Positions 20,036 through 64,000 of a stretch of DNA of 64,000 nt are shown piece after piece (the stretch's first letter is position 1; the number at the start of each line of letters is the position of its first letter). A program made the translations under genes and the position numbers. Under the pieces are notes generated by a model. It ran no database searches. It worked only from the letters and a program-made list of their open reading frames with translations, and had not been told where the DNA came from. The stretch is from Thuidium tamariscinum (taxonomy: Eukaryota; Streptophyta; Bryopsida; Hypnales; Thuidiaceae): NCBI GenBank assembly GCA_947034885.2, contig OX344755.2, forward strand, positions 22,327,052 through 22,391,051, in the 5' to 3' direction.

Positions 20036-21538
20036 CTATTCATACAAACGCCGAAAGTGTTCATTGGGAATAGGCCAGTTGAAAGTATTGGTCCAACGAT
20101 TGATGATGCGTGCCAAACCGCCCGCATTCTCCGGGCCGTCTTTGCAAGGGTGCTCCAAGTACGCACGAAATGAAATTGCCAAGGCTTGGTGATTAAATTT
20201 GCTCATGCTTGGCGTTTCCATGTTCAACTTGTGGTACTCCTCAGACATGCAATCCCTGTTAATTGCCATGGCTATTTTGCACACTGCGTACTCCTCCGTT
20301 GCAATGGATAAACTTGGAATTACTTGCACATTTTTGTCTTTTTCGTGCAAATATGCAATCTTCGAGGTCACCTACCAATGGTTTTCCAAAGCAGCATCCA
20401 TCTCTTCTTTGGATGTGAACACGTACAATGACTTCGGTGGTTCTGTAACGTACGAAGTCATGCCCCAATCGCACACTCCAATGTACACGCGCGACTCGTC
20501 CGCGGGAAAATACAACATAATGTTGTCCAGTGAGATATCATTGTGCAAATATCCTGCATCGTGCACCGCATGCATGATATGCAACAACGCCCATGCTAGC
20601 TCCATACGTTTCTTCCGAAATCGTGCAAGATGATCCGCGGCAATGACATCCGCATCCGTTGGCGAGCTATATTGCAAGTGCATACGTATGTTGTCTGGAT
20701 AAGTTCTATCCAAATGCATCATCTTCCGCAAGGTCCCGCCATTCCACCAATATGCATATCCTTCATTCCTCCTTGCATGAACTGCATGAAACCGTATCAC
20801 TCCGGGATGGCCAATCCGCACCGCCATGGACTTGTTTCGGTGTTCCACCTTCGCAAGATGAGGTAGCGTTTGCTGTACATTAGATAGCTTTGCTGCAAAC
20901 TCCCAATATTCAGGTATTTCACGGCATCCCCGAATTTGCACCCTCCGAATTGTTGCGTACCCGCCTTTGGTCACGACATCATCACAATTAATCACGGTCG
21001 CCGTGTCTGGAAGTGCTATTAGATGCTTCCTGCCTTCCGTCAATTCAACCATTCCATCATTGGTTTTCCACCAACCCATAGATCCTCGTCTGTTCCTGGC
21101 AGACGCAAATGGAGCACATCGGCCGACAAACAATTCAGCCCTTAGAATGACTTACTGAAATGCAGCATCATGTTCACGGTGATGCCTCCCATACTTCGTT
21201 AAGATGTCCTTTGCATTCCACAACGCGTCATGCACCTTATTTTTCAAAAACGGCTCAAAGCCACTCTTATCCATCTCACTGTGCCATTGTGGAACAGAAA
21301 CCGCATCCATAAGCCGTCGCCACATGTCGTCCTTGAATTTTTTAGGATAGTCCTCATTGTAGCGAACATACTTCATCTGCAAGGACATCGCACTCTCCGA
21401 TTCGTAGAAGTCCACGATCACTTTAATCAGCATATTATTCAATGCTTCAGAGGGCTTGTTTGCTTTTACCTCCTCTTTAGATGGACCTGCCACCTCCTCC
21501 AGTTTCCTTTTACCCGCCTTCTTTGTTCGTCCCATCAT
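20036..21538 (-). pseudogene. Protein-kinase-like gene with two in-frame stop codons
   Basis: From ATG 21,538 to the stop at 20,036 a single frame of 501 codons runs on the minus strand, broken only by a TAA (21,152-21,154) and a TAG (20,372-20,374). The N-terminal third is basic then helical (GRTKKAGKRKLEE at the start). The rest is a kinase fold related to the intact gene at 56,843. Shared features are FAAKLS (likely ATP-binding Lys), YWWNGGTL, the catalytic loop LHNDISLDNIML and CDWGM in place of DFG. The TAG falls where the relative has the second Trp of RWWVAPE, so TGG to TAG is likely. The TAA could come from CAA. Both fit C-to-T transitions. It may be a recently silenced copy, or be read through; I favour silenced. 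Confidence 0.75.
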
Positions 21539-21690
21539 GATAAAAATCACGTCAAAACTTTGAAAAAAAGCAACAAGGGGGCCCCAATAATGTCACCCTT
21601 GCTTTCCCTAGGAGGGGAACCAATGGAGACTTAAGAACTTAAGCCACCAAGCTTTCCACTCCACGCTTGCAAAATGCAAGGGAGAAAACA
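21539..21690 (-). other. 5' leader of the kinase-like gene
   Basis: The leader lies between the predicted transcription start and ATG 21,538. A possible intron runs from GTGACATT (minus strand, about 21,594) to a T-rich stretch ending TTCAAAG (about 21,560). This would mirror the leader intron of the related gene at 56,843. The exact splice sites are uncertain. Confidence 0.35.
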
Positions 21691-21975
21691 AGAGTGAGGG
21701 CGGACGGCCCCGACCGCCCCTCTTATACCCTGGCGGACGCCCTAACCTGTGCGGACGACCCGACGAGGCGCTGTCCGCCGTCTGATCGATCGGACGGCGC
21801 GCATGCGTTCGCGCGATCGAGCGGCCGCGGACGGGCGGACGGATATGCGTCCGCCTCGTCGGACGGCATTAGTCCGTCCGCCGACGCAATGCACGTCGGA
21901 AACGTGTCCGCCCGATTGGGCGGACGGGAAGTCCGCCGTCCGATCGATCCGACGGACGACCATGATCGGGTGGGT
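21680..21975. repeat. GC-rich CpG array B at the kinase-like promoter
   Basis: This roughly 300-bp block is dense in GTCCG, CGGACG and CGATCG words on both strands, with clear edges against AT-rich DNA. It covers the TATA box and upstream promoter of the kinase-like gene. The same arrangement is seen at the genes at 49.6-51.7, 56.8-58.5 and 60.0-63.2 kb. The frames seen here on both strands are repeat artefacts. Confidence 0.75.
21721..21727 (-). promoter_or_regulatory. TATA box of the kinase-like gene
   Basis: The minus strand reads GGGTATAAGAGGGG, a strong plant TATA match about 190 bp upstream of the ATG. It lies inside the downstream edge of GC array B. Confidence 0.6.
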
Positions 21976-22014
21976 GCCTTCCGCCTAATCCAACGGTCTA
22001 CTTTGTAGAAGGCC

Positions 22015-22335
22015 TTCATTTGAAATTTCACGTGAAGAGGGGCCAAAAAAATATGGAGAGGTTGAAATTTCTTAGAACATTTCTATTCTTTGACAAATTT
22101 CCATTTGGAAATTGAAATTGCCTATTTTTTATGAGATTCCAAAAAATAGGATACATTGCAATATTTGGAGTTTTTTGCTAAGTGCCCTATTCATTTCAAA
22201 TTTCACGTGAAAAGGGGCCAAAAAAAATATGGACAGGTTGGAATGTCATAGGACATTTATGTTCTATGACTAATTTCCATTCCACATTTGAAATTCTCTA
22301 GTTTTGATTTTATTTCAAAAAATACGCCACGTAGC
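22015..22335. repeat. Tandem repeat with a 175-bp period (about two copies)
   Basis: TTCATTTGAAATTTCACGTG at 22,015 recurs as TTCATTTCAAATTTCACGTG at 22,190. Each is followed by AGGGGCCAAAAAA, then ATATGGA and an imperfect copy of the next 120 bp. The core CACGTGAA is a G-box-like word, but the repeat could equally be part of a transposon end. Confidence 0.8.
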
Positions 22336-22378
22336 CATTTCTGGGTCTACTTTGTAACATTAGGATGAGAGTCAGCCC

Positions 22379-22386
22379 TTTATAAG
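22379..22386 (+). promoter_or_regulatory. Candidate TATA box
   Basis: CCCTTTATAAGACC is a good TATA match about 340 bp upstream of the first frame of the unrecognised split gene at 22,723. Position and composition are the only support. Confidence 0.35.
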
Positions 22387-22722
22387 ACCTCCACAATTAG
22401 GTAGCTGCCCGATACGAAAAGATTGCTTCCCGAATGCAATGATTGCATGAGCTGATATGGACAACAGTTGTACATGCTGTCATGCTTTGGGCTCAACGGT
22501 CCGATGGGCAAATCTCAACGGCTTTGAGGAAGGACTTGCATGACTGCAATTTTGGCGCCTACTTGTATGGCTGGGGTTTCGCGCGGTTTTTGCTACATAC
22601 ACTTCTTACAGCGACTTGGATTTTAGTCACCTAAACATTGCAGTGCCACCACCATATTTTCGATGTCGTTGTTTTGCTTTCATTGCAAGTTTCTCTAAGC
22701 TTGCTTCAGTTACTCTAAAGAG

Positions 22723-29212: not shown

Positions 29213-29660
29213 CTACTTCTTCATCCGCTTTTTGGGGGAATCCGCATGCTTGGCGGCTCCCTTGCGTGTTGGCTGTTTCCTACTGGTGGAAACCTTTGCC
29301 GACGCAGCTGCTTTGCCCTTGGAAGGCGTGGCAGCAATCTTACCCTTCCCCGCAGATTTCGGAGGCGTGATTTTCGCCGGGTCTGACGGTTCCGGTTCCG
29401 GTTCCGATCCTGATCCGGATTCCGAATCTGACTCCTCTTCTTCGTACTCGCTCTGCTCTGGGGACTCATCTTGGTCTGACTCCAGCTCAATGGGACTCTC
29501 CCTCGCCCGCTTCGCTGTAGCCTTCCTCTTCATTGTGCTAGGAACCTTGGGAGATTTCTCGGATACCTTGCTCGGAGGCGTCTCTTGATCCTGGTCTTCC
29601 GCTTGGACTTGCTTTCGGATTTGGGATCCGGGTGTTGCCCCTTCTCCCACATCAAGATCA
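29213..29660 (-). CDS. Charged low-complexity coding-like segment, left of the hAT MITE
   Basis: A minus-strand frame ending at 29,213 encodes acid/Ser/Glu/Pro-rich and then Lys/Ala-rich sequence with a basic tail (SPKKRMKK). The pattern (acidic SESGSGSEPEPEP, then lysine-rich AKAAASAKVST-like stretches) suggests a disordered nuclear protein tail. It lies directly against the 8-bp target duplication of the MITE, and similar coding sequence lies on the other side. I therefore read both as parts of one region that the MITE interrupted. Confidence 0.45.
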
Positions 29661-29668
29661 AGTCGGGA

Positions 29669-30466
29669 CAGGGTTGTCTATCCTGACGTGATGTGGGCTT
29701 TTCCCGTCCGGATGTCATGACGCGTCAGAGGCCGTCCCGAATGCTGACGGCGTCGTCGACGGCCTGGATGAAGTCTGTCGACAAGGCCGTCCACCATCGA
29801 CAGGGCCGTCGAGGAGGCCGTCCACCGTCGACAGGGCCGTCCACGAGGCCGTCCACCGTCGACAGGGCCGTCGAGGAGGCCGTCGACCGTTAACAGGGCC
29901 GTCGAGGAGGCCGTCCACCATCGACAGGGCCGTCGAGGAGGCCGTCCACCGTCGACAGGGCCGTCCACGACGCCGTCGACCGTTAACAGGGCCGTCGACC
30001 GTCGATAGGGCCGTCGAGGAGGTCGTCGACCGTCGACAGGGCCGTCGAGGAGGCCGTCCACCGTCGACAAGGCCGTCCACGAGGCCGTCGACCGATTAGG
30101 GCTGGCCGGCTGCAAACTTCAGAGCCTTGTAACTTTTGCAAAAAGTCTTCAAATTGGGCAAATGAGATGTTTTTCGGCATCTACAGTTTCTGTAGATGCC
30201 GAAAAACATCTCATTTGCCCAATTTGAAAACTTTTTGCAAAAGTTACAAGGCTCTGAAGTTTACAGCCGGCTAGCCCTAATCGGTTCGATTCTATCCTGG
30301 ACGGTCCGGTCGACGGTGGACGGCCTCGTCGACGGCCTTGTCGACGATTTTTCATCCTCTGTTGCGGATTCTGTCGTGAATTTCATCCTGACGGACGCTC
30401 GGCTCCCCGTCACGTCAGCAGACGGACATCCTGACGGACGGACGTGACGCGACGGAAGCAACCCTG
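29669..30466. mobile_element. 798-bp hAT-type foldback MITE with perfect 8-bp target duplication
   Basis: The ends read CAGGGTTG at 29,669 and CAACCCTG at 30,466. They are flanked by identical 8-bp duplications AGTCGGGA (29,661-29,668 and 30,467-30,474). CAGGG ends with 8-bp duplications are diagnostic of the hAT superfamily. Inside, two GACGGCC/GTCGAC arrays flank a near-perfect palindrome with arms of about 95 bp (about 30,093-30,188 and 30,189-30,285), meeting at CTACAG/CTGTAG. The right 125 bp is almost identical to the end at 47,060. There is no coding capacity, so a hAT transposase must act in trans. Confidence 0.95.
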
Positions 30467-30474
30467 AGTCGGGA

Positions 30475-31935
30475 AGCTGCCTTGGGCGCCTGTGGAGTCT
30501 TCTCTTCCACTGAACCCTTGCCCTTGGATTTCCCAGAATCAAGTGGAGAACCCACTTTGAATTCAGGAACCAGGATTACACTTTCCTTACCCTGGCTGGA
30601 CTCCTTCCCCGTTTCCGGATCCGGATACAGCCCAGCTCCTTGCAAAGCCTCCCTGATCTCAAACAGAGTTCTCTCCATCCTCTCACCAAACTCCACTAAC
30701 ACCTTCACCATCTTAGAAGCCACTGCCGGCCCTGCCTTATGCACTTCCTCATCAAATAATTTTGCCTTGTTAAGTACATCGCCCGGAATCTTAATAGAAT
30801 CCCGAATCCGCTTGAGGATTGCTTGGGACTCACCCGACAGCCTCCTAGACTCTTCTGACTTCTTCTCCAACTGACATTGGAGATCCCTAACCTGAGTGGA
30901 CAATTCCGCAATCCGGCTTTCCCACTTCCCAATATCCTGATTTTTGAGAAGTTCTTCTATTTTCTCACACAAAACAGAGGGACTGATGTTTCCCAGCAGT
31001 CTACATGCCTTCCGGACTTCCTCTCTTTCCCCACTCTGATCCTTTCGGATCCTCTCCAAATCCGCAATAACAATTCCTAACGGATCCTCCTTCCTATCAC
31101 TCGGCCAGACCGGATCCTCTTTCACTTCCTCAACCTCTGGCTCCTTTCCCTTCCTTGAAACAGGAACCTTCTCTTGCTTTCTCTCCTTCTCTGAAGATCC
31201 TGGTCCTTTTGAACCTTCCTTTCCCTCTCTCTCTTCCTCACTTTCTGATTCCGGGGGAGGACTGATGTCAAACTTCAGCATCACTGAAGCGGACTTGTAC
31301 ATAGTGGCCTCTCTGTCCCTTAGCAAATCAAGAGAGTGATATAGATGGAAGAGAAAAGGACTGAGGATAGTGGGTTTAGACTTTCCGGCCAAGGTTACTA
31401 ACTTTCCTACATGATCCCGGATTACCATTCCCCAACTAACCTTTCGGTCCCCAGATAATGCCCCAAAGATCGTGTTGGCTATCGTGGTTGTAATCCGGGT
31501 TGGCCTTTCCGGATACAGAATCGGAGTTAGGAATTCAAGCACTCTCCTATCCCTCTTGCTTGCACATTCCGCGACTGTATACCCGTCCTTAGGATGCGGT
31601 GGTTTGGAGAACTTACCCTTCAAGAACTTGTCCGTCCTTGAGGCTCCTCCTTCTCCCTCCTTAGGAAACCCATACGCCTTCCTCCACAGCTCCGCTGTCC
31701 ACCGGTTAGGAAGCGCCCTAACAGTCCGGTTCCACTCACTGGACTGATCCTCCATCACCTCCCGGACCATGTCTTCGTCTTTGAGGTTCCATGGGCGCTG
31801 CAGCAACCCTAGGCAGCCAATCTGGGTCAGGTCCTCCTCCAAATAAGCGCGCTCCTTGGCATCCTTGGGCACTCCCGGAGTTACGGACTTTAGGTTCACG
31901 AAAACCGGATCCTCTGCTTCCTTGGACTTCCCCAT
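30475..31935 (-). CDS. Large uncharacterised coding region, interrupted by a hAT MITE
   Basis: The minus-strand frame starts at ATG 31,935 (MGKSKEAEDPVFVN) and runs about 487 codons to the MITE. The N-terminal half is globular, with conserved-looking blocks RITTTIANTIFGALSG and KPTILSPFLFHLYHS. The middle is Glu/Lys/Pro-rich and disordered. The last third (about residues 265-425) is predicted coiled coil. I do not recognise a named domain. Similar ORFs are, to my recollection, frequent in repeat-rich plant genomes, so a mobile-element protein is more likely than a host gene. A retroelement origin cannot be excluded, but no reverse transcriptase, protease or LTR is visible. It is interrupted by one element insertion. 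Confidence 0.5.
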
Positions 31936-47059: not shown

Positions 47060-47560
47060 CAGGGTTGCTTCCGTCGCGTCACGTCCGTCCATCAGGATGT
47101 CCGTCCGCTGACGTGACGGGGAGCCGAGCGTCCGTCAGGATGAAATTCACGACAGAATCCGCGACAGAGGATGAAAAATCGTGACAGCGGTCGTGGACGC
47201 CCTCACGGACGACCTCCGTGGACGGCCTGGAAGGACGTGCTCGGTGGACAGTTCCGATGGACGGTCCTGGCTGACTGGACGGCTTGGATGGACACTCTGG
47301 GTTCTGCGGACGGTCCGGATCCGGTGGACGGTTTTAGGGGACGGCCCCGCTCGCGGGGTATGGACGGCCCCGATGGACAGGACGTCCAGTGGACGGCCTG
47401 GACGGACGCCTCCAGATCGACGGTCTGGGTACAGTCTACGCTTGGGAAGGACGGCTTGGATTGAGAGGAAGGTTGGACGGCCTGGGTTCGATGGACGGCC
47501 TGGCCGTGCCGTCGACGGTCAGGATGGACGGCCTGGGCTCCGTGGACTGGAACTCTTTAT
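47060..47560. mobile_element. hAT-type GC array C with intact left end
   Basis: The block starts CAGGGTTGCTTCCGTCGCG at 47,060 inside CACTA subterminal repeats. The preceding 8 bp are AGTCACGT. Its first 125 bp are almost identical to the inverted right end of the MITE at 30,466, then it passes into GGATGGACGGCCTGG-type repeats. No CAACCCTG followed by AGTCACGT was found to its right. It is either truncated at about 47,560 or it is the left end of a longer element that includes the RING gene. Confidence 0.75.
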
Positions 47561-47639
47561 TTGTAAGACTTAAAAGTCTGAGTTCATATTCGCAATCAAA
47601 ATTTTCTCATTAGTCTATGAGGTTTAACCATCTCTCAAA

Positions 47640-48945: not shown

Positions 48946-49299
48946 CATATATACTTGTGGCATATGTAAAAAATAGAATTTTGGAAATTTTTAAAAGTGA
49001 ACTTACAAAATCTACTTTAAGTGAAAGTATGGCATTGGATTTAAATGAACTTGTTGCACATACATTTCAAGCAAACGTATTGAGTATTCTTTTCATTTGT
49101 TCATGGTTAAGTTTTCAGTTTAAGTGTTTAACAAACAATACAGTTGTACGAGAAAAATGAAAATGCTTCATTGCCCAAAAAATGTACTTTTGCAACATGA
49201 GCAACAAACGCTCGTAAATGGTCGTCATAGCCAAATACTATTTACAATACTAATATACTATACATCCGTCTAATGGCCTAACTCATCACCAGAAGGTAT
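48946..49299. other. Spacer after the AT-rich repeats
   Basis: About 350 bp of AT-rich DNA forming the 3' flank of the minus-strand RING gene. No feature recognised. Confidence 0.4.
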
Positions 49300-51663
49300 T
49301 CAACCTTGTTCTGGTTCTACAATGCCTCTGCCTATACTATTTCTCAAAAAATCTTGCAATCCTTCTCTAGATTGCAAACTATTCAACGTAGCCACTACGG
49401 TCCGATCATATCGATCGTGCAAGTAGGAAGAAATGGTTGACAACATTTGCACCTCATTGAACGTAGTGTCTTCGATGAACCTCATTTGTGCCTCATGATC
49501 CATGTCTTGGAGTATTCCGATAGGATTTCCACTGGAGTCAAAAACCACATTCTCTAGATGTGGTTGGCGCACGAACTCTTGTCGGTCCAAGTCCTAATGG
49601 CCACCAGCAAGTTGGCCAAAAAATACTCGCCGCCCTGGATCGCCCGCACTAATCAGCTTCTTGCACACCTCCGTAATCTCCGCATCATCGTTCCACGGAA
49701 TGTCTTGCACGCTGCGCACGGCGAGGTGTCTACTGTCATGGCCCCACTTCCACATCCATATCATGTCATTACCCCAACTCCCTCTATTCTCATCGCCAGG
49801 CAAGTTCTCTTCGTTCAACTCGAAGTGTGGGGGCATGTAATCCTCCAACCCAAATTGGACGTACAACCGCCGGTGCAAAGGAGCCTTGCATTGTGCGCAC
49901 CGCTTTCTTGTGACCATGTGCGGAATGAGACATCCGGGGTGGTACATATGTCCACACGTTCCAAGGCAAAATCCACCTTCGGGTCCAAACGGTTCCATGC
50001 AAATCGTACACGTCGTTCCATCCTTCACAAACTCGGGAACTATGGGCCACAGTAAGGGGGCATTGCCTTCTCTATCCACGGGCCCGTATCGATATCTCGC
50101 GGTGTTGAATTGGAAGTCTAGATGCGGATGCCCGTCCCAATCAATGCTTGCATTATCGCAATTTTGGGGCAATGTAACTGGAAACATATCCTCCAGTCGG
50201 GCCCACGATGTCAAGCCAAAATAACGTTGGCTACCATCTCTAAATTCTGCAGCTATTCTCCTGACTTCACGTTGCAGTTGTGCGACCTCGTTCATAGCCA
50301 AAGTGCATGCCAATCTCATGTTGCTCATGGCAAGCAACTTTTGCTCCCTCGTAGTTGACGTTTGTTGCAACAATCTATCCTTCATGGCATTTACAAATGC
50401 CAACTCGTCCTGTAGTCCCTCCAAAGCCGCTGATACAGTCTCCATGTTGGCCTTGGCCTCATTGCACTCGCCCTCTACACGCTCCGCTCGTGCCACAAGG
50501 GCATCGTATGCCACGCGCTCAACGCTTATGAACTCTTGGCCCAATGCATTTGTTGATTGGGTTGCCGCATTTGAACTCTCACCACGAAAATGTGGTGTTG
50601 GGAATATACCATGAGGCCGCACCCGGCGCACCGTCAATGGGTCAGCTGGCTCAATTAGACCATATGTGGCCCGCTCCACGACCTCATCCAATGGTGGAGT
50701 GCCATCCGTGCTTTGGCGACGTTCACGTTCAAGCAAGTCAATGTTACTTGCTAGTAACTTAGCATTCGTTTCCTCCAAAGCCTTCACTCGTGCGTTGTGG
50801 GCTTGTACCTCCATCTCGTGCCTTCGCTCAGCTTCTGCACCATCCTCACGCAGCTTAATCACCAATGCACGTAATGCCTCTAATTCCCCATTTGCTCCAA
50901 ATACTTCATTAATTGTCATGGATGGGGGAATTGGGTGAATGGCGAGTGGCATGGGCTCGCTTGGACCGGCAATGGGCGCCTCCAATTTGGGAGCCACCGG
51001 ATTTTGTTCGTTGGCGCCTTGAGGTGCATTGTCGACCTCCATGGGGTCCGCGGCCGCCGCTTCGTCCCCTTGTGCCCCAGCCACTCCTTCGCCTTCCAAT
51101 TGCACTTCAGGATTTGGTGGAATTCTACGGCTTTTAGTAGGGAAACGGCCGCCCCGTTGTTTAGCCGGATACGTGTTCCAATCCACGTCCTTGCCCAAAA
51201 AAACCTCCGCATACGCCATTTGACACAATGCGAGGGTCCCATCCTTCTTCGAGAGGGTCCCCCAAAGTGCCAATGCCACCTCGGTCAACCGCTTCTTGAA
51301 CGTTGGGTGTACGCAATACTTGATCAATGCAACGCCAGATCGCACTTGCGTCTCATTTCTCTCCCGTGGAAAATGGCGGTTGATGTGGGCCCAGTCCACG
51401 TATCTCTGACATGTGGTGCGGGTCCATGGCTCAAGCGCCTGTTCCCACCCGTGCCCGGCCAAAACTTCTCCAGTGTTGAAAGTCGCCCAGTCTACAGTGC
51501 TCCTGTTCCCACGACGCCTCCTGTGTGGGGGTTCACCTTCATGGGTTACCATCTCCTGGTTTTCTACCACTGGGGGGTGATTTCCAGCAATTACCACCTC
51601 CTGGTTCTCTGCCATAGGGGGGTTCTCCACATGTATTACCATCTCTAGTGGGTTTAAGGCCAT
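49300..51663 (-). CDS. RING-finger protein with coiled coils; one in-frame TAG before the tail
   Basis: From ATG 51,663 (MALNPLEMVIHVEN) the frame runs 689 codons to a TAG at 49,594-49,596. It then continues open in the same frame for another 98 codons to 49,300. Counting from about 51,684: a conserved-looking N-terminal domain (about 60-180; RYVDWAHINRHFP), an acid/Pro-rich linker, coiled coils (about 265-325 and 405-490), and a RING at about 559-605 (CTICMEPF, CGHMYHPGC, CAQCKAP) with all metal ligands. It was most likely an E3 ubiquitin ligase. The tail after the TAG has normal protein composition (NVVFDSSGNPIGILQD), so the TAG looks recent (CAG to TAG) or is read through. A TTGTGTGCAG acceptor ends six bases before the ATG, implying a leader intron. 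Confidence 0.75.
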
Positions 51664-51863
51664 AGTACCTGCACACAATGCCACAACACGGTATATATGT
51701 ACAGATGACTATGCTCTGCCTCCTGTTGCGTGAGGGCAACTGGAATGTGGCAAAGCAATAGCCAAATGCTTGACTTCCTCCCGAATTGCAATGCAAAGCT
51801 TTTTTCAAGCTAGGACAGAGCAACTCAAGAGAGAAAGCAAGGTTAATTGTGGCTGAATTTGGG

Positions 51864-51870
51864 ATTTATA
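51864..51870 (-). promoter_or_regulatory. TATA box of the RING gene
   Basis: The minus strand reads GGGGAGTATAAATCCC, about 200 bp upstream of the ATG and about 80 bp downstream of GC array D. The spacing resembles that of the other array-linked genes. Confidence 0.6.
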
Positions 51871-51944
51871 CTCCCCATTACCAAGCCTCGTTAGGAGTGT
51901 TAATTTGTGTCTAATCACATCGCCATGCACCACCTGGAGCCGTT

Positions 51945-52720
51945 GATGCGGACGGCCATCGACGGCTGGGGCGTCCAGGGAGCGTCGACGGAGGTTTGAG
52001 AGGCCGTCGACAGCTTCGGGATGACGTCACAGAGGCCGTCCACAGGTCCGGCGTCGTCAACGAGTTCGAAAACACTCATGAGTTCGAAAATCCATAATTA
52101 CTCCGCCGAATTGCAAATTCGATGGCCAAAAATGGCTCTTCGTGACGGCCTGCCCGTGGTCTTGGACGGCCACTGTTCCGCTGTGGACAGCCTGCCCGGA
52201 CAGGTCGACGCTCCGGCCCGCAGCCAAATTCGTTGCGGACGGCCTGCCCAGGTCCTGAACGGGCCCGTGTTGCTGGACGGTTTTCTGGACGCCCTCCGTC
52301 CCCGTGACGGCCTGCCCAGGGCCTCGACGGCCAGGGAGGACTAACCCCTCTATTGCCCCTCCGGAGGGTAAATGTAAAAAATTCCCCCCTAATTTGTGCC
52401 GATTAAATTTTAGATTTCAACACGTCCCCTAGCTAAATCGAGGTCTCTGATTCCAAATAAGAATTCAGAATTTGCAAAAAAGAATTTGTGTGAAAAATAA
52501 AAGAAATTCCAGGGTTTTCTACAAGGGTAAAAAAGGGGCAATAGAGGGGTCAGTCCTCCCTGGCTGTCCTCGACAGGCCCGTCTTCCTGGACGGTTTTAG
52601 GGACGCCCTCCGTCCCCGTGACGGCCTGCCCTGGTCTTGGACGGGCCCGTCTTCCTGGACGGTTTTCTGGACGCTCTCCGTCCCCATGACAGCCTGCCCA
52701 GGTCCTGGACGGGCCCAATA
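51945..52720. repeat. GC-rich array D upstream of the RING gene
   Basis: GACGGCC, CTGCCC and GTCGACG words dominate 51,945-52,341 and 52,565-52,720. The unit GTCCCCGTGACGGCCTGCCC is repeated, for example near 52,297 and 52,611. A 235-bp AT-rich stretch with inverted ends separates the two halves. Frames across it are artefacts. Confidence 0.7.
52330..52564. mobile_element. Small inverted-repeat insert within GC array D
   Basis: Thirty-base ends, 52,330-52,359 (GCCAGGGAGGACTAACCCCT...) and 52,535-52,564 (inverted), match at all but one position. They enclose about 175 bp of AT-rich DNA. It could be a small MITE or a palindromic rearrangement of the array. No target duplication was established. 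Confidence 0.6.
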
Positions 52721-54315
52721 GGTGGGCCCAATATATACTGAATTTCAATTAGGCAGGTGGAATCCAATTAGACAGCCAAGATCCAATTACGCAATTGGTA
52801 TTCATTTAGGCAGTTGAGATGCAATAAGCTGTAAGACAGCAGAATTTTAATGTGGGTGAACTGGTGAAGATTGCCAATGCAGTACCTGTATACTGTAATT
52901 TTTATTGGAGCTCAGTGAGTTAACATTCACAGCTTGCATTTCTTTTTAAAAAAATTTGGGATTCATTCATGGTTGTGACAAGTGTGTGACTCATTCAGAT
53001 CTTGTATTTCTTTTTAAATTTTTTTGGGATTCATGATTGTGACAAGTGTGTTAGCCATGTATGCATGGTAGGAGGCAAAGATTGCACTTATTTAAATTAA
53101 GAGTTGATTTGCCTTTTTCGTGTATGTCTTTAGATGAAAATATTTTTAGTTTATTTTTCAGTCAAGGAGAAATAGATGAGGAATCTAATACAAGTTGTTT
53201 CATATTTTTTGGAAGAAAAATTGAATTAATTATTAATTTTCAAACACAATTTGTCATAGGACCCTATTTGTGATCAGTAAGCCTTGAAAATCTATACATG
53301 CACAGTTTCTAAAAGAATCTGGTTTGGTGAATAAACTAGTAATGCAACATGTAAAAAATGGTTTGAAATGGTTTCTAAATGTGTCCCTTTCAAAATCTGA
53401 AATGAATTCTTCAATTAATCATTATTTCAAAACAATTTCACATTTGAAAGAAGGTAGTTTAACAACCATTTTTTATTTTGAATAAAATTAGTAGACACCT
53501 ATAAGTACACTTAGTTACGATTGAATCCATTGTAACTCCAAAACCATCCATTCATATAGTAAAAATCAAATCTTAGCATGCTTCAATATAATCCACAATT
53601 AGTTTCCTCACAATGAGCTTTCCAATTCAGATTTCAGACCCTCCTATAGTCCTATTAAGCAGATAAAAAAGCCTGCATAGTTTATTAACCTCCGTGTGAG
53701 CTTCCTACCATAATAGTTGATTTGAGAGCAAGAGGTCCTTGAACTTCTTCATTTTAAATGTTAGAATGGATTTGCAGACTTACTGATACTTGTGTTTTTA
53801 AACACAATCGGCTTATTAAATTCCCTAAGTTTTCCTTATTATATAAATGAATGTGAATATGCTCTTGTGCCTTTAAATTGGTTTTAAATATTGCATTAAT
53901 TAGGATTGTATACTATAGTTTAATTTCTCTATTGTGTGCTTTGTTTTCTTATAAATGGTGAAATATAAATAGTTGTAGCTTTGATTTTTGATTTTCAAAC
54001 TCTTTAGTGGCATATAGATAGCATATGCTGTGCGTTTCACCATGTTCTTAGTTCATCAAAATCCTTGAAGCTCACATGTTTCCTTGTATACAATGTTTTT
54101 GATCTTCTCAATATTTTGTAATTATGAAATGTAGAAAAAAAATAGGGTGTTCAAAAATAGTCCTTCAAAGAATTTACAAAAGAAAATAGGGTACTCTAAA
54201 ATACACTCCGGTAGCTTTATTCTACTAATAGGGAGGGAAAAAAACATGAGAAGGACATAAATACCCCCCCATTAAATACCCCATTATCGCACGTGGTTAC
54301 CAAAAGATAAAGGGG
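52721..54315. other. AT-rich spacer
   Basis: No gene. GCAGGTGGAATCCAATTAG-like repeats lie near 52,755-52,815. ATTTCTTTTTAAA-type words repeat at 52,940 and 53,005. The rest shows nothing recognisable. Confidence 0.45.
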
Positions 54316-54760
54316 GTGAACCCCCAAGTCTATTATTCAAACCATTCCCATTTTTTTTATTCAAACCTTTCCCATTTTTTTTATTCAAACCATTCCCATT
54401 TTTTTTATTCAAACCATTTCCACATTTTTTTCCAAACCGAATCATTTCCATATTTTTTTAGTCGATCCATTAACCCATTTTTTGGTCCAAATCCCTTCTA
54501 TATATTTTTGCCCAACACCCGAAACCATTAACGTTTTGCTTTATTCACACCACTTCCATTTTGGGGATTCAAACCTTTTCCCTATTTTTTTTAATTGAAC
54601 CATTAACACATTTTTTTCCAACCCATTTCCACATTTTTTTTATTCGAACAGGGCTCGACAATTTCTTTCCAAACCCTTTCTATATTTTTTTGGGGTAACT
54701 TTTTAAACCCTTTGACGTGTATTTTTGGTTCAAACCATTAACACACTTGCGGAATTCTAA
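54316..54760. repeat. Inverted copy of the AT-rich degenerate repeats
   Basis: Units such as TTATTCAAACCATTCCCA and CATTAACACATTTTTTTCC are reverse complements of the units at 47,640-48,945. The first four units (54,330-54,415) are almost identical to one another. With the other block they make a widely spaced inverted repeat around the RING gene. Confidence 0.8.
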
Positions 54761-55968: not shown

Positions 55969-56008
55969 TAAACCCTAAACCCTAAACCCTAAACCCTAAA
56001 TCCTAAAA
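55969..56008. repeat. Interstitial telomere-like repeats
   Basis: Four to five units of the plant telomere repeat in the CCCTAAA orientation, the last ones imperfect (TCCTAAAA). They lie about 190 bp before GC array E. They could be a telo-box promoter element or a trace of break repair. Confidence 0.85.
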
Positions 56009-56194
56009 CCTTCGGTTGGGCAAGGGCTTTAGGCTGGGTTTTTGACCTTCTCAAAATTCAGTGTCAGCCCTTAGATGGGCGGTTTCTGGCCTGTTACCTT
56101 ATTACCTTGTAGAGGAATTTCAGTTGCACGAGGCTTGCCATTAAGTCTTCGCTGGCATCTTCACCGCCCTGTGCTTCCCCGACGATCCCCTTAA

Positions 56195-56640
56195 TGGTTC
56201 AGAATTCCCGGGACGCCCTGTGGGGTCGCGTGGACGGCCTCGTTCCACGACGGACCCCCGAATTCCCAGGACAGCTTGTGCGTCCTGTCGACGGTCTCGC
56301 AGTTCCTCGACGGTTTCCTGGACGGCTTCGAAATTCCCGGGACGGATGGGTGCGTCCCGTCGACGGCCTCATCGTCCTCGACATTCCCCTCGACGGCTTC
56401 CCAATTCTGAGGACGGCGAGCGCGTCCCCTCGACGGTCTCGCAATTCCTCGACGGTCCCCACGACGGCTTCGAAATTCCCGGGACGGATGGGTGCGTCCT
56501 GTCGACGGCCTCATCGTCCTCGACATTCCCCTCGACGGCTTCAGCGCGTCCCCTCGACGGTCTCGGAGTTCCCGACACCCCTCGACGGCTTTCGAGTTCC
56601 TTGGACGGATCGGCCGTCCATGCGACGGCTCGCCAACGAC
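56195..56640. repeat. GC-rich array E at the promoter of the intact kinase-like gene
   Basis: GACGGCTTC, CCTCGACGG and TTCCCGGGACGG words repeat throughout. A larger unit beginning TTCGAAATTCCCGGGACGGA recurs at 56,327 and 56,469, a 142-bp period. The block stops at a TATA box (56,641), so it forms the upstream promoter of the kinase-like gene. Frames here on both strands are artefacts. Confidence 0.8.
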
Positions 56641-56648
56641 TATATAAG
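56641..56648 (+). promoter_or_regulatory. TATA box of the intact kinase-like gene
   Basis: ACTATATAAGGTGGG directly follows the last unit of array E and lies about 200 bp before the ATG. It is a strong plant TATA match. Confidence 0.75.
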
Positions 56649-56789
56649 GTGGGCCAGGTCCCCCACTCTGCACGAGTCTCTCCTGCTCTGACGGTGCTCT
56701 CTTGCCCTGGATTGGTTGCAGTCCTTGCTTGGGAGCGCGGGTGCTTGCGAGGAGGCTCGGCTGAGGAAGGGGGGATAGTTTTCACATTT

Positions 56790-56841
56790 GTGAGTACTGA
56801 ACCCTAATTCCTTGGTTTTACCATCGCATATTTTTTTTCAG
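56790..56841 (+). other. Leader intron of the kinase-like gene
   Basis: A GTGAGTACT donor at 56,790 and a TTTTTTTTCAG acceptor ending at 56,841 define a 52-bp intron. It ends one base before the ATG at 56,843. The short length and perfect signals make it convincing, though unproven without transcripts. Confidence 0.65.
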
Positions 56842-56842
56842 A

Positions 56843-58504
56843 ATGGACGGGCGAGGTGCGTCGAAGCGCAAGGTTGATGAGTGGTTTTCAGGCATCGGAG
56901 ATCCTGTTGGTGAGCAGTCTCCAGAATCCATTGACTGCGTATCAGAGGCAGTATTGGCCGGAGAAGGGGTCGGTGGTGCGGCTGGAGGAGAATCTTCGGG
57001 GGCCAAGAAAAAAAAGAGCAGGCGGAGGCACAAGGCTACGAATACAGACGACTGGCCAAGGAAGGCTGCGACCAGAAAAGTGCAGGAAGTGGCATTGGAT
57101 TTTTTGGAGCAATATACGATTGCTCAATTGAATACGACCTACGTCTCGCGTGGATTGCAAGGGGTGGAGACAATTAAAAAAAAATTCACCCACATGTTTT
57201 GGACAACAATGGGCGAGGATGAGTGGCTTGAAGATCGCACAAAGGAACACTTCCGTCGTTGGCTTGACGAACAAGTGCAAACTTGTGTTTTCAACATCGC
57301 CCAAGTCGCCGCATCGGTAAAGGGCTTCAAACGAGATGTAGCGCCGAAGCAACAAGCATTGCATTTGTTGCACAAAAAGGTGTATTGGTGGCATGACGCA
57401 ATGCGAGCGCTGTCTTCCAGCAATATCCGCTCTGCCCCATGGTTTCAGCAGAGCCAAAGCTTGTCCCTAGGCCAAGCGGGTGCGGGAGGAGTGGTATTTC
57501 TTGAACGAGGAGTGGTGGTGGTTCCATTGTCAGGCCACAACAAACAAGGGGGGCACGGGAGGGTGCGTAAAGTGAGCCTCCAAAATTCAAGGCACATTCC
57601 CCCCATGATGGAATTGGCGGGCAAGACAGCCCTATATGTGGATCAATTGAAGAAGTCGCGGGAGAAGTTGTCCATCGAGGCTTTGGTTTGTCCATGTAAT
57701 CATCCAGGGGTCATAAAATTTTTTGCTATAAATGACATGACCATGGAGTGTTATTCTCAATGGTGGAATGGAGGAACATTGGGAGCCATGTTCGCATTGG
57801 ACCAAAAAAACCGAGATTATGCTGAGATCGGGGAGCTTGCCTACCATGCAACTCCACAGACGATGCAAGAAGCCAAAAGACTCTTGGCTTATCGTAGAAA
57901 CCGCACCGAGCTTGCATGGGCGTTAATTTGCATCGTGGATGCGGTGCAACAATCTTCGGTGCTCCACAACGACATCACGCCAGAAAACATCATGTTGCAT
58001 TTTCCGAATGATGATGGGCGAACAGTGTGGATTGGGCTATGTGATTGGGGAATGGCTAGTCGTATCAATGAAGAAACCCATTCTTTGTACCAGTTTCAAT
58101 GTGCAAGCCAAATGCGGGCTACACGTCAGAAACGTTGGTGGGTGGCCCCTGAATTGATGTATGTTCCTGGAGAGGCGGGCACTTCGGTATCCCCCACTCG
58201 TGCAGATGGGGCACCGTGTGTTAGTATACATACAGACGGATATGCTGTTGGGAAGCTTGCGGAGAAGATATGGAAGAAAGACCGCGAAAATACGGAAATG
58301 CTTCCCGACCATACAGCGTTTGGTACATTTCAAGCCACATTGGGCGAATTGTGCAAAGAGGACCCACTACAACGACGCACAGTAACGTACGCCGTGGGAC
58401 GAATTAGTGGCGCCCCCTTATTTTGGACTCCACCCGTTGATTGCTACCGCGAGGCCCGCAAGGAGCAAGCACTTCTACAAGAACAAGCAAGGAATGAAGA
58501 TTAG
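56843..58504 (+). CDS. Intact protein-kinase-like gene with atypical HND and DWG motifs
   Basis: The 553-codon frame from ATG 56,843 has no break. Residues 1-75 are low-complexity with a basic stretch (KKKKSRRRHK), a likely nuclear signal. Residues 75-200 are helical. The kinase fold spans about 210-530: glycine loop region GGHGRVRKV (237-245), likely ATP-binding K261, YSQWWNGGTL (304-313), catalytic loop LHNDITPENIML (374-385) with D377 and N382, CDWG (400-403) for DFG, WVAPE (433-437) and TDGYAVGKL (464-472). Key catalytic residues are present, so activity is possible despite HND for HRD. It is clearly related to the broken gene at 20,036. I do not recognise a named kinase family. It faces the hAT transposase gene and may be transposon cargo. 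Confidence 0.8.
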   Translation: MDGRGASKRKVDEWFSGIGDPVGEQSPESIDCVSEAVLAGEGVGGAAGGESSGAKKKKSRRRHKATNTDDWPRKAATRKVQEVALDFLEQYTIAQLNTTYVSRGLQGVETIKKKFTHMFWTTMGEDEWLEDRTKEHFRRWLDEQVQTCVFNIAQVAASVKGFKRDVAPKQQALHLLHKKVYWWHDAMRALSSSNIRSAPWFQQSQSLSLGQAGAGGVVFLERGVVVVPLSGHNKQGGHGRVRKVSLQNSRHIPPMMELAGKTALYVDQLKKSREKLSIEALVCPCNHPGVIKFFAINDMTMECYSQWWNGGTLGAMFALDQKNRDYAEIGELAYHATPQTMQEAKRLLAYRRNRTELAWALICIVDAVQQSSVLHNDITPENIMLHFPNDDGRTVWIGLCDWGMASRINEETHSLYQFQCASQMRATRQKRWWVAPELMYVPGEAGTSVSPTRADGAPCVSIHTDGYAVGKLAEKIWKKDRENTEMLPDHTAFGTFQATLGELCKEDPLQRRTVTYAVGRISGAPLFWTPPVDCYREARKEQALLQEQARNED

Positions 58505-58716
58505 AGAATAGTATTTTAGTGGCAATGTAATCGTAGACGTACCTTAGTACTTGCTTTTACCACAGTATAGTCCACGAACTTTGCGTCACTGAATTTTGTA
58601 CTAACTCCTTTTTGAAATAAATATATGTAAATCTTTTTGTTCCATTCGAGTATGATTCCGGTGAGTGGATTTGTGAGTAGTTCTGTCCCTTCGTAAATTT
58701 TGGACTGAATGCCATG

Positions 58717-59643
58717 TTAACCCCTAAAGGACCACGGCCGTTTTTCAACCCAAAACCACTCAAAACTGCCATTTTTGTTCCATTCATCCATGAAAAACAA
58801 AAAAACTAAATTTTTAGAATCTAACCATAGGATCTTGAACTTTACTTAACTAAGATGATGTGGTGAAAATTTCATGAAGTTTGACCGTATAGATAGGAAG
58901 ATATGAGCATTCAAAGTTAGAAAACAAAGTTTTCTTAAACACTAGTTTGCAACTTCAAATGACTTTGTCCTCCATTTATGTAATCTTTTTGCACTACAGA
59001 CCTTGAATTAAAATTTTTTTATTGAGAAATTGAGCTAAGAGCTTAGGAAAAAAAATTCACAAAATAAAGACTTTTTGTCATTCTTTAAAAAATTGTCAAG
59101 TAGATGTAGGTCCAAGATTGAAAGAAAAACTAAATTGCAAATATCTCATAGATGGAATTGAAACACAATAATCCCAATGGTGAGATTGTTCTAGAAAACA
59201 AAATCAACCTTGTCCAACAATTTTTTTTTTAAAATTGTGGAAATTGCATTCACAAATGAATCCTAGAAGTTATTTTTTCAAGAAGATGCTTAGATTGCCC
59301 GAAAAACAAGATTGTTCATAACTTTCACATTACTAATCCAAATGGAATGAATCAAAGCTTTACTTGTAGACAAAAATATAATCTATAAGAAAAAAAAATT
59401 ATTTTTTTAATTTTGAAGTTTCTGTAGATTTTTTTTCTGCCCGGCAACATAAAAATAATGTTTATGATGGCATAACTTTTGCTCCCGGTCACCAATTGAA
59501 AAAAAATGAATATTTCCACGGAGCTAATCAGTTTTTTTATCTTATGTGAAAATTTCAATAAAATTCATTAAAAATTGAAGTCACAAGTACTTGCCCTAAT
59601 TCTTAAAGTTCCCCGAGGGGACTCTTGGTCCTTTAGGGGTTAA
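58717..59643. mobile_element. piggyBac-type MITE (927 bp), best-preserved ends
   Basis: Ends of 18 bp match perfectly as inverted repeats: TTAACCCCTAAAGGACCA at 58,717 and its inverse ending at 59,643. The outer TTAA is the expected target duplication. A subterminal hairpin (AGTTCCCCGAGGGGACT) lies inside the right end. The interior is collinear, inverted, with the copy at 18,610-19,541. It sits between the convergent kinase-like and hAT genes and is non-coding. Confidence 0.92.
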
Positions 59644-60024: not shown

Positions 60025-63000
60025 TCAACGTCTTGCACGTGTACGATTAGGAGCCATGCTCCTTGCAGCAGCCTCTCGCGTGGTTGCTTGATTGTCTTGA
60101 GGTGCAGGTGGAGGACCTCTACGAGTCCCTCTATAATCACTATCTCCCGGAACTTCACCATCTTCACCTATACTAGGACCCATGGATTCATCATCATGAT
60201 TGGACGTTGCCCTACCGACTTCGCTTGGTGAGTTGTCAGGGCTGTCTGAGCCTTCACCTGCTATAGAAGCCAATCTGCGGATTGTTCGCCCTCCTACTCC
60301 ATCTCTAGCGGTATCCACACTGGGCCCCGTCGGTCCAGGGAGAAGACCTTCGCGGAGAAATGGTATACTCGCCGCTTCTTCCCTTCTTAGCCTTCTACGT
60401 GTTCTTCTACTCACTCGTTCATTGGTAGGGCTTTCTTCACGTGGCCGCGGGCGTCGATTAGTAGTGCGTGTAGGCGGTGCAACGGGTTGTTCTGAGGATG
60501 GAGGTGCATTCCTTCGCTCGGTCATATTTAGAGTTGGGAAGAGACCGGCCAATCGTGTACCGACTGATGGAGTTTCTTGGTTGGGGCGGACTCTAGAAGA
60601 TGAAGGCCGTGCTGAAATTTGGACGGGTGGATCATCCAAGCTAGGCGCTTGTGGTCGCACGCCGATCGTGTCTCGAAGCAATGTGCGAAAGTCTATCTCG
60701 ACACCAATGGGGGATCTGTGGCTACGAGTGTTCCGCGCCACTCGGGGATCTGTGGCAACGACCTCATCTTCGCCTTGTCTTTCTACCACAACGACATGTT
60801 CATGTCTCCGGGTACGCATTTCTTCTTCAATCGGCCCTATAACCGGCGAAGGTGGGGCTTCAACCCCTTCGTTTTGATTTCCACCACTTGACCCCGCAAT
60901 CGATGTACGTGGCATCCATGACGGACTGCCATCATTTCCCCCGTTGTCATTTCCATCCTCATCTCCCCCGTGGTCATTTCCATCATTATCCGCGCCATCA
61001 AAGTCAAATACGGACTCGTCAATTAGGGGACCCCTTTCTTGCCTTTCACCCAAAGGCCGAAATGGTGGATCATCATCGCCATTGGAACTGTCGTCTGAGT
61101 CATCGTTGTTAGCGTCTGACATAACCGAACCACGATCCAAGCCATCTGATTCGGTTGTCATGGAATCTTCGGACAACATGTTCTCAGTGTACCATCGTGC
61201 TGCATCCGCCGCACCCCTTTCCCTGAGAGTCCTCGAATTGGTATAAATGTAAACCAATTCCTCCGCGCGCTCAGATGTCAATCTGTTGCGAGACTTGCTG
61301 TGGACAAATGAATACATGCTCCAATTGCGTTCGCATGATGATGCGGAACATACTTGTGCGAGGATCCTTCTTGCAATAGGTGCAAGCGTATGAGCAGCGG
61401 CTCCGAGAAGATCCCACCATTCATGCGGCTCCAAATTCAAAGTATTCACATCGGGAAGTCCAGCGAACATGCCTCGGCGGTCTCGAAAGGATTGGTACTC
61501 AAACAAAGCGGCTGCATATCCCAACCCTCCAACTGCCAATTTGCGTAGTACTCTAAGAATGGCCTCCTTTGCCTCGTTATCGTCTATTAGTATAATTTCA
61601 TCAAGGAGGAATGGATTGAGCAGGGCAGCTGCGTAGTGCAAATCAGTCTTCATCAAATCCCATCGTTCGTAAAACGCGTATTCAACACGGTCCGCATAAT
61701 TTGCCTCCAATGAAAATGGTCGATTCCTCAAAGCCAAAACATGCTTTTCTAGCTTCTTCATCACGATCCATGCTTTGCCCATGACCGGATGTTTTCCATC
61801 AAACTCTCGAAGAGCCACCAACACAGGCTCTACCATATGCACAAAGTTGAGACACCTCCTCCAGAACTCGTCCTTTCGAACCCTACGTCGAACCTTTTCT
61901 GCCTTATTGTGTATTGCAGCGTTCGAGGACCTCACATATTCGTTCCACTGCGGATCATGGACTGTAGATTCCACGGCTTCCTTGACCTCGGCCAAACGCT
62001 CGATCATGAGGAACATGGTCGCAAAACGTGTCTCAATGGGATTCTTCAACATGAGGTTAGGAGAATGTCGTCGGAAAATGGCGAGTGGCATGTGATGCGT
62101 GCGAATGAATTTCACGATTGATTTTGCTTTCTTCACCATTTTGACCACCCAAAGTTGCTTGCCCCAATCTTCAAGTAGAAGGTCAAGTGCATGCGCGGAA
62201 CAACCTTGGAAATATAGGTGAGGGAATTCGCGAGTAATTTGAGTACCAGCCAAACGCATGTTTGGCGCATTGTCCGTACAAACTTGCACCACATTCTGTC
62301 CCCCCACCGCGTCAATGTAATCGATCATGCGATTAGCCACATAAACAGCGTCTTTGCTTTCGCCTGTAGTGTCCACCGATCCCAAAAATACTTCTCCACT
62401 CGTGCACGACAACATTACATTGATCAATGGCCGATGGCTGACATTGTCCCATCCGTCAGAACATATAGTGACACCGTACTTGTGGATAGGCCCCTTTGTC
62501 TTCTCCGCTACCAGTGCAGCCACTTCCTCCTTTGTTTATGTCATGAGCTTCGTACGTATGGCATTGTAAGGTGGAGGTTTGTAAAGAACTCTGGACTCGG
62601 AGGTTGATTTCACGGCATCCACAAAAGCGGGGTGTCTCACCACATTGAATGGGATATTTGCTTCGTAGAAAAACTTTGCCCACTTCTTGTCTAGTACTTG
62701 CTTTTTGGATGTGTCCATCCCTTCTTGTACGGATAATTGCCTCAGCGGTCGACTATGGGTCGAAGAAGGGACAGGCGCCTCTGATGATCGAACTTGAGAA
62801 TTTTGGCCCAAAGTATTTCCTCCCCCTCCACTAATTGAGATTGAAGCATTGGGTAATTCTTGATCACGTACCACCCTCGTTGGATTCGATGACGGTGATG
62901 TCACTTCCACATCATGTTCCTCTTCGTCTTCGGAGACCGTAGGAACATTCCCCCCACAATTGAAAAACATAGCCTTCATTGCTGCACTGGCCTTGTTGCA

Positions 63001-63159
63001 CATTCTCACTCCGGGGAGGGTGTCATTTCGTCTATAACCCAAGTGGAAAAGCAAGCGATCCTTGCGGTAACTAATCTTCGTTTTGCAGAACTTGCATTCC
63101 ACTTTCCCATCCTCTTGTAGCCTGTACCAGGGTTCCCATTGTGTCCTCCCCCCTCCCAT
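60025..63159 (-). pseudogene. hAT transposase gene (BED finger, DUF659, dimerisation domain) with one in-frame TAA
   Basis: From ATG 63,159 one frame of 1045 codons runs to 60,025 with a single TAA at 62,536-62,538 (RTKLMT, stop, TKEEVAAL). The N-terminus has a BED zinc finger (CKFCKTKISYRKDRLLFH ... MC). After the TAA come the DUF659-type RNase H fold and hAT dimerisation domain. Counting from GTG 62,523, catalytic acids are D23 (CSDGW), D84 (CTDNAP) and E398 (SCERNWS). The last roughly 390 residues are an unusual acidic, Arg/Pro-rich, disordered tail. The TAA could derive from CAA by a C-to-T change. A leader intron (63,243-63,186) precedes the ATG. Apart from that stop the gene looks whole, so it is either freshly inactivated or read through. 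Confidence 0.88.
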
Positions 63160-63185
63160 TGCTCCCACTGGTTCTTCACTTGAAA

Positions 63186-63243
63186 CTGCACAAACAAAAC
63201 AGGTTAGTATTCAGTTTGGATGTGATGTGGAAATAACACTTAC
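63186..63243 (-). other. Leader intron of the hAT gene
   Basis: On the minus strand a GTAAGT donor begins at 63,243 and TTTTGTTTGTGCAG ends at 63,186, giving a 58-bp intron shortly before the ATG. It mirrors the leader intron of the kinase-like gene at 56,843. Confidence 0.6.
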
Positions 63244-63371
63244 TGCTTTCACAGCAAGTGTTCCTCCCACACACTCTTCTTGGACTTCACTCTAGTGCAA
63301 TGGCTGTGTGCCAACCAGGTCATAAGAGCAGAGATCAGCAAGGAAAAGTGACCTTCAAATACACGGCTTGT

Positions 63372-63379
63372 GCTATATA
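63372..63379 (-). promoter_or_regulatory. TATA box of the hAT gene
   Basis: The minus strand reads CAGTATATAGCAC, about 210 bp before the ATG and just downstream of GC array F. The spacing is very like that of the kinase-like and RING genes. Confidence 0.6.
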
Positions 63380-63389
63380 CTGTGAAGGC

Positions 63390-64000
63390 CTGGCAGCAGT
63401 CGTCCAGTCGACGGCCTGTCCGTTGGCGCACTGTGGACAGCCGCGGACGGGACGTCGTGGCCGTCCCTGCAGACGCTCTGGCCGTCCAGCGGACGTCCCG
63501 CTGTCCAAACGACGGCCTGGCCGTCCCCGCAGCGTGGACGGACTCTGGACGCCGTGACCGTCCGCTGAACGGAAAACTGTCGAGGCGACGGCCTGGCCGT
63601 CCGGTCGAAGTGCACAAGCCGCGGACGCTCTGGCCGTCCCCGCTGCGTGGACGGACTCTGGACGCCGTGACCGTCCGCTGAACAGAAAACTGTCGAGGCG
63701 ACGGCTTGGCCGTCCCGTCGAAGTGCACAAGCCGCGGACGCTCTGGCCGTCCCCGCTGCGTGGACGGACTCTGGACCCCGTGACCGTCCGCTGAACGGAA
63801 AACTGTCGAGGCGACGACCTGGCCGTCCCGTCGAAGTGCACAAGCCGCGGACGCTCTGGCCGTCCCCGCTGCGTGGACGGACTCTGGACGCCGTGACCGT
63901 CCGCTGAACAGAAAACTGTCGAGGCGACGGCCTGGCCGTCGCGCCTAAACCCTAAAGCCGCGGACGCTCTGTCCGTCCACGCGACGGCCAGTCGTCGAGG
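63390..64000. repeat. GC-rich array F: 113-bp tandem repeat upstream of the hAT gene
   Basis: AAAACTGTCGAGGCGACG recurs at 63,573, 63,686, 63,799 and 63,912, an exact 113-bp period. Each unit holds AAGCCGCGGACGCTCTGGCC and GACGGACTCTGGAC. Units differ by only a few bases. The array continues past the window edge. Near 63,952 a CCTAAACCCTAAA telomere-like word interrupts it. Frames across it on both strands are artefacts. Confidence 0.95.

Follow-up and report, generated by a model that had tools for sequence, protein, structure and literature searches.

The promoter region of the En/Spm (CACTA) transposon is GC-rich. Maize Ac/Ds elements have 8-bp target-site duplications (TSDs), terminal inverted repeats (TIRs) that start with C/TAGGG, and AAACGG subterminal repeats that bind the transposase, according to PMC3260210. 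PMC3310237 describes TIR promoters in MuDR that drive the genes of the element and TIR promoters in Pack-MULEs that drive internal regions, and PMC1832190 describes promoters in Arabidopsis and rice in which a TATA box is combined with a pyrimidine patch (Y patch) and upstream direction-insensitive elements. Here we describe a 64,000-nucleotide stretch of the genome of Thuidium tamariscinum (Bryopsida, Hypnales; assembly GCA_947034885.2, contig OX344755.2, positions 22,327,052 to 22,391,051 of the forward strand), hereafter the window, from which all results below were obtained and in which positions are counted from the first base. Two kinase-like genes (kinase 1 and kinase 2), a RING gene and a hAT transposase gene were each found directly downstream of a CpG-dense array with a GACGG core, and a core-promoter layout common to the four genes is predicted, with good support from sequence statistics. 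We propose that these are TATA/pyrimidine-patch promoters at arrays of hAT-like transposon-end descent, taken up or kept by the kinase and RING families, and put the probability of this reading at about 45%.

Arrays were located by scanning for the words GACGG, CCGTC, GTCCG and CGGAC, a cluster being defined as at least six words. This gave 10 clusters window-wide, which were joined into seven arrays (17.1, 21.7, 29.7, 47.1, 51.9, 56.2 and 63.4 kb), whereas 50 block-wise dinucleotide shuffles averaged 1.64 clusters per window, with 5 at most; the biggest real cluster contained 45 words and the biggest shuffled one 14. A first-pass annotation of this DNA had listed four arrays, those in front of the four genes, and each was recovered as a cluster (21,701-21,957; 51,949-52,712; 56,233-56,694; 63,410-63,987), the RING cluster in three pieces with an insert between, but three additional arrays in the window had been missed. 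The arrays associated with the four genes were as follows.

21,680-21,975, minus strand: CpG array preceding kinase 1; words of the GCGGACG type, 26 core words, 69% GC
51,945-52,720, minus strand: CpG array preceding the RING gene; word clusters, interrupted by an inverted-repeat insert
52,326-52,360 and 52,534-52,568: arms of the inverted-repeat insert in the RING array
56,195-56,640, plus strand: CpG array preceding kinase 2; period of 71/142 bp, word clusters
63,390-64,000, minus strand: CpG array preceding the hAT transposase gene; period of 113 bp, reaches the window end

Four of the seven arrays lay no more than 320 bp upstream of a correctly oriented frame (kinase 1, RING, kinase 2 and hAT). 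When arrays were placed at random against the 13 gene starts listed for the window, a list that is our own and in which several positions are approximate, at least four fell upstream of a start in 63 of 100,000 trials. The remaining three arrays (17,114-17,395; 29,669-30,466; 47,060-47,560) were next to none of the 13 listed starts; a 154-amino-acid frame at 29,216-29,677 does adjoin the 29.7-kb array but was left off the list, as it was read as the second part of a frame interrupted by an element (see below). Arrays without a gene therefore formed a minority in the window (3/7), whereas the first-pass annotation had named a genome-wide majority of such arrays as the result that would speak against it.

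The proposal that the arrays share word content was borne out in part. CCGTCC was enriched in six of the seven arrays, as was GACGGC, and GACGG/CCGTC occurred in both orientations in six, the 17-kb array having CCGTC alone; the kinase 2 array showed a strong strand bias of these words (19 to 2). At the level of 8-mers, however, just 6 of the 21 possible array pairings shared more than any of the 40 shuffles. Of the six pairings between gene arrays, two were in this group.

Each of the four genes had a TATA box about 200 bp before the ATG, as had been proposed, and the stretch that followed was rich in pyrimidines.

21,720-21,727, minus strand: TATA box of kinase 1, TATAAGAG; 189 bp before the ATG, next stretch 75% pyrimidine
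51,863-51,870, minus strand: TATA box of the RING gene, TATAAATC; 207 bp before the ATG and 78 bp away from the array edge, next stretch 78% pyrimidine
56,641-56,648, plus strand: TATA box of kinase 2, TATATAAG; 202 bp before the ATG, next stretch 67% pyrimidine
63,372-63,379, minus strand: TATA box of the hAT gene, TATATAGC; 220 bp before the ATG, next stretch 75% pyrimidine

Relative to the array edge, the TATA box was 27 bp inside in kinase 1 and beyond it by 2 bp in kinase 2 (where the edge was placed by hand at 56,638, omitting one word downstream of the TATA box), by 30 bp in the hAT gene and by 78 bp in the RING gene. No TATA box was present within 420 bp of five other frames, two of which are without a clear ATG, and the chance expectation was 0.031 TATA sites per 30-bp bin. 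Pyrimidine content was scored in a window of 36 nt, 28 to 63 bp past the TATA box. It was 67-78% for the four genes, and a value of at least 64% was found at 28 of the 302 TATA-like sites in the window, the four gene sites among the 28. Within 200 bp beyond the edges of the gene-free arrays, the 29.7-kb array had no TATA-like site, and the sites near the 17-kb and 47-kb arrays were all at or below 50% pyrimidine. A TATA box followed by a Y patch was present in 4/4 array genes, and transcription is predicted to start at these TATA boxes. The common expression cassette suggested earlier stood as far as this layout is concerned (array, TATA box, pyrimidine-rich start region and a leader of about 200 bp), which has statistical support; a superfamily with genes as cargo was not shown.

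These data also bear on the idea that the arrays are unrelated GC-rich minisatellites that lie close to genes by chance. Unit and period do differ among the arrays, three arrays are without a gene, and 15 of the 21 array pairs were not above all shuffles in 8-mer sharing, all of which would be compatible with it. The combination of placement, TATA spacing and pyrimidine patch speaks against it, and we consider chance a highly improbable explanation.

Some further details of these arrays were noted. In the RING and kinase 2 arrays (51,945-52,720 and 56,195-56,640) the gaps between core words were often about 10, 20 or 30 bp, and word phasing at 10.2 bp gave a mean cosine of 0.59 (RING) and 0.53 (kinase 2) compared with -0.39 to 0.17 in the other five, values that had no shuffle control and were not used. 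About six copies of a TAAACCC repeat at 55,969-56,011, ahead of kinase 2, and a CTTTAGGGTTTAGG word at about 63,945, within the hAT array, resemble plant telomere-type motifs. The inverted-repeat insert in the RING array (about 52,318-52,575) has arms of about 28 bp (GCCAGGGAGGACT...) and, by eye, a possible imperfect CCTCGAC target duplication.

Evidence for the origin of this type of array came from those that have no gene.

29,669-30,466, no strand assigned: hAT-type non-autonomous foldback element, largely a GACGGCC/GTCGAC array; TIR CAGGGTTG, TSD AGTCGGGA
47,060-47,560, plus strand: gene-free array; 91% match of its initial 160 bp, which contain the TIR word, to one end of the 29.7-kb element
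17,114-17,395, no strand assigned: gene-free array; begins at a CAGGGCTG word

On the plus strand the 29.7-kb element starts with CAGGGTTG, which is of the CAGGG type, and ends with CAACCCTG, a terminal match of 8 of 8, with an exact 8-bp TSD, AGTCGGGA, on each side. In shuffle controls a TSD pair with five or more terminal matches was obtained in 1/200 and one with an 8-long match in 0/200. The tandem unit of the element contains CAGGGCCGTC, which is similar to the TIR CAGGGTTGTC, and the self-folding of the element was far outside that of shuffled sequences (z -39, 20 shuffles). It sits between two minus-strand frame pieces, 30,418-31,935 and 29,216-29,677, neither of which had a Pfam match; the frame that it interrupts appeared gag-like by eye only. 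Because of the TIR and TSD at 29.7 kb and the same terminal 160 bp at 47 kb, two of the seven arrays, of which the first is complete, were assigned to a hAT-type family, which supports a transposon origin of these arrays. For the 17-kb array a second end was not found in the end-pair scans. The 29.7-kb element has hAT-type features, its mobilisation by a hAT transposase being putative, and a transposon origin of this array type, shown for gene-free arrays only, is likely.

Some plant elements favour the 5' ends of genes, and the presence of a complete array-type miniature inverted-repeat transposable element (MITE) in the window would fit a scheme in which such hAT MITEs landed independently, each just ahead of a TATA promoter that was already there. 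However, the edges of the RING and kinase 2 arrays had no TIR or TSD when scanned alone, those of the kinase 1 array gave a within-array palindrome only, and the TATA box lies inside the array edge in kinase 1 and 2 bp past it in kinase 2. Independent insertion is quite improbable on these grounds.

The coding frames of the four genes and their predicted leader introns were as follows.

20,036-21,538, minus strand: kinase 1 frame, decayed; stops TAA at 21,152-21,154 and TAG at 20,372-20,374
49,300-51,663, minus strand: RING gene frame; TAG in frame at 49,594-49,596
56,843-58,504, plus strand: kinase 2 frame; 553 amino acids, uninterrupted
60,025-63,159, minus strand: hAT transposase frame; TAA in frame at 62,536-62,538
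56,790-56,841, plus strand: predicted leader intron of kinase 2; 52 nt, GTGAGT...CAG, by motif only
63,186-63,243, minus strand: predicted leader intron of the hAT gene; 58 nt, GTAAGT...TACTAAC...CAG, by motif only

These had been described as four unrelated genes with intronless frames, three of them with a splice acceptor just 5' of the ATG, a description that needed some revision. The acceptor was present in three genes as described, but a consensus donor accompanied it only in kinase 2 and the hAT gene, the RING gene having an acceptor only and kinase 1 neither by the consensus used. Kinase 2 was uninterrupted, but in-frame stops were present in kinase 1 (two), the RING gene (one) and the hAT gene (one). 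Finally, the two kinases are paralogues, with 34% identity over 244 amino acids. In Pfam comparisons kinase 2 matched Pkinase (E 9.4e-9, 35.5 bits against a gathering score of 31.7), the middle piece of kinase 1 matched it below the gathering score (E 3.5e-5, 23.8 bits), and the RING protein matched zf-RING_2 (E 4.9e-6) at 0.1 bit under the gathering score. The hAT piece past the stop matched DUF659 (E 9.3e-34) and Dimer_Tnp_hAT (E 8.9e-10); with regard to an N-terminal BED-type zinc finger, the 207-amino-acid N-terminal piece gave no Pfam match, and a CxxC pattern was seen by eye only. A tblastn search (E up to 1) found no additional fragment of these kinase, RING and hAT proteins in the window.

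By searches able to detect close relatives only, viral contigs gave no relative of the RING protein, a piggyBac-like protein, kinase 2 or the C-terminal piece of the hAT protein, and prokaryote genomes gave none of kinase 2; none of kinase 2 was found in phages either. Kinase 2 gave one weak match to solved structures (E 0.033), and its predicted structure had a mean predicted local distance difference test (pLDDT) score of 35.5, too low for use. Reassignment of the stops (TAR read as Gln, table 6) was considered. The frames listed under this table contain 1 such codon for the hAT gene, 2 for the RING gene, 3 for kinase 2 and 10 for kinase 1, part of which lie past the gene ends, and many frames would open in non-coding stretches too; ordinary decay is the simpler explanation, neither being proven.

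The two kinases give some weight to an explanation in which transposons are bystanders: the kinase and RING families would be host genes with a genuine array-type regulatory region, in which slippage turns the repeats over while selection keeps the position and the core words. Although only 34% identical, both kinases have an array, a TATA box and a leader of 189-202 bp, and no alignment at E 1e-6 was obtained between the two arrays. A TATA box and Y patch with direction-insensitive elements upstream is normal in Arabidopsis and rice, as PMC1832190 describes, and convincing transposon ends were not found at the kinase and RING units. Against this, the hAT transposase gene has the same design ahead of it, in-frame stops interrupt three of the four frames, and similar arrays without genes exist, one of them a mobile element. 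A host promoter of this kind is possible, but on balance rather unlikely.

Ends were sought around the kinase 1, RING and kinase 2 units, defined as an exact 8-bp TSD together with at least five matching terminal bases. The first end scan, with another threshold, was overly strict and also missed the genuine 29.7-kb element, which a looser second scan recovered, and scans of the arrays alone were noisy in that inverted repeats within the array outscored the genuine 29.7-kb end pair. For the RING unit one candidate pair was obtained (49,299-53,448), with an exact 8-bp duplication, AGAAGGTA, and 5 leading and 12/20 terminal matches. Its ends are TTCAA, which is not hAT-like, and it starts one base past the RING stop codon. 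This level was matched in 7/200 shuffles and three units had been tested, so the pair was counted as weak. For the kinase units, scans with looser settings yielded nothing but matches that were weak and AT-rich or lay within the array.

The first-pass annotation had regarded the kinase and RING genes as cargo of one transposon superfamily, with the array as the 5' end. The design that they have in common with the hAT transposase gene, the existence of a hAT-type element made of such an array, the decayed frames and the one weak candidate pair around the RING unit are what this would predict. The pair has non-hAT ends, however, and was the sole one in three units, kinase 1 and kinase 2 having none; an array at the 3' side was not seen, and word sharing went beyond all shuffles in only two of the six gene-array pairs. 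The link to transposons was upheld for two gene-free arrays, whereas cargo status of the kinase and RING genes is unproven; as a general account of the locus, we consider it decidedly unlikely. A fuller version, in which a transposon-derived CpG-array promoter module is common to the hAT family and to two unrelated families, one of RING genes and one of HND/DWG-type kinases, the array, TATA box and 200-bp leader staying while the repeat units are completely replaced, and in which the kinase and RING genes are hAT-type cargo, also appears unlikely.

Several observations weigh against descent of the gene arrays from transposon ends, the reading that we prefer. Convincing TIRs and TSDs were found around none of the kinase 1, RING and kinase 2 units or arrays, and neither kinase unit gave a pair in which an exact 8-bp TSD was combined with five or more terminal matches. 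The outer (5') end of the hAT unit is beyond the window, because its array continues to base 64,000, and no array was seen by eye in the window at the 3' side of any of the four genes. The 8-mers common to the 29.7-kb element and any gene array stayed inside the shuffle range, as with the RING array (35 common 8-mers against a shuffle mean of 28 and maximum of 40). The kinase 1 array belongs to a different word class, its words being common with the 17-kb array (GCGGACG type) rather than with the arrays of the other three genes. In the RING gene the TATA box is 78 bp away from the array, and another TATA-like site, with 44% pyrimidine, lies 19 bp past the outer edge of the same array. On the other side, one of the four array genes is itself a hAT transposase.

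We therefore suggest only tentatively how the locus may have arisen. The four genes would have an ordinary TATA and pyrimidine-patch core promoter close to, or right at, the edge of a CpG-dense GACGG-core array, which would stand in for the upstream orientation-insensitive regulatory region, and which may bind protein and carry CpG methylation. The arrays would most likely derive from hAT-like DNA transposons, namely from their repeat-rich ends, in which the repeats may bind the transposase and also drive its gene; those beside the kinase and RING genes may share this descent, the kinase and RING families having adopted, or retained, the same kind of array as promoter. If transposon ends have been reused as promoters by several gene families in this way, the locus would be a clear example of repeat-array promoters in which position is kept while sequence turns over. 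If the transposon reading is false, this is still a well-defined promoter layout that is worth annotating.

The window contains several other elements. Two TTAA-flanked elements with CCCCTAAA ends (18,614-19,537 and 58,721-59,639) are 75% identical; both are found on the downstream side of a kinase gene, with the same orientation to it. The window also has a frame for a piggyBac-type transposase at 35,764-37,629. AT-rich 24-26-bp minisatellites at 47,700-48,910 and 54,330-54,745 lie in inverted orientation on either side of the RING unit, their outer flanks being apparently unrelated by eye. A large inverted repeat at 12,948-14,364 (96% over 580 bp by self-BLAST) has 177-bp tandem copies inside. 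The frame at 4,911-5,705 encodes an Rce1-like CAAX-protease domain and gave four plasmid matches (23-31% identity), two annotated as xrtE and two as CAAX prenyl protease-related. A Transposase_24 match in the window was below the Pfam cut-off.

Compared with the systems outlined at the start, the locus resembles En/Spm in that CpG-rich repeats adjoin the promoter of a transposase gene, but the transposase at the array here is of the hAT type; CACTA ends were not searched for. Like Ac/Ds, the 29.7-kb element has an 8-bp TSD, a CAGGG start and repeated subterminal words, and a hAT transposase gene is present at 60-63 kb. It differs from Ac/Ds in that its words form CpG-dense GACGG/GTCGAC arrays of hundreds of base pairs rather than AAACGG hexamers, and in that its terminal repeat is just 8 bp. 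The array genes are like plant TATA and Y-patch promoters in having a TATA box followed by a pyrimidine-rich stretch, with words in both directions in most arrays, and unlike them in that the upstream region is a 300-800-bp array of few word kinds. Among the literature matches listed, there was no clear precedent for kinase or RING genes as transposon cargo or for CpG-rich subterminal promoters in hAT elements, which is no proof of absence. A further analogy is with MuDR and Pack-MULEs, where terminal transposon DNA has the promoter role for element genes and internal regions that we propose for the arrays, although no long TIR or convincing TSD was found around the kinase and RING units and their arrays are one-sided. 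An array-promoter mechanism would thus be known in kind, because the ends of MuDR and Pack-MULEs can drive internal genes, as PMC3310237 describes.

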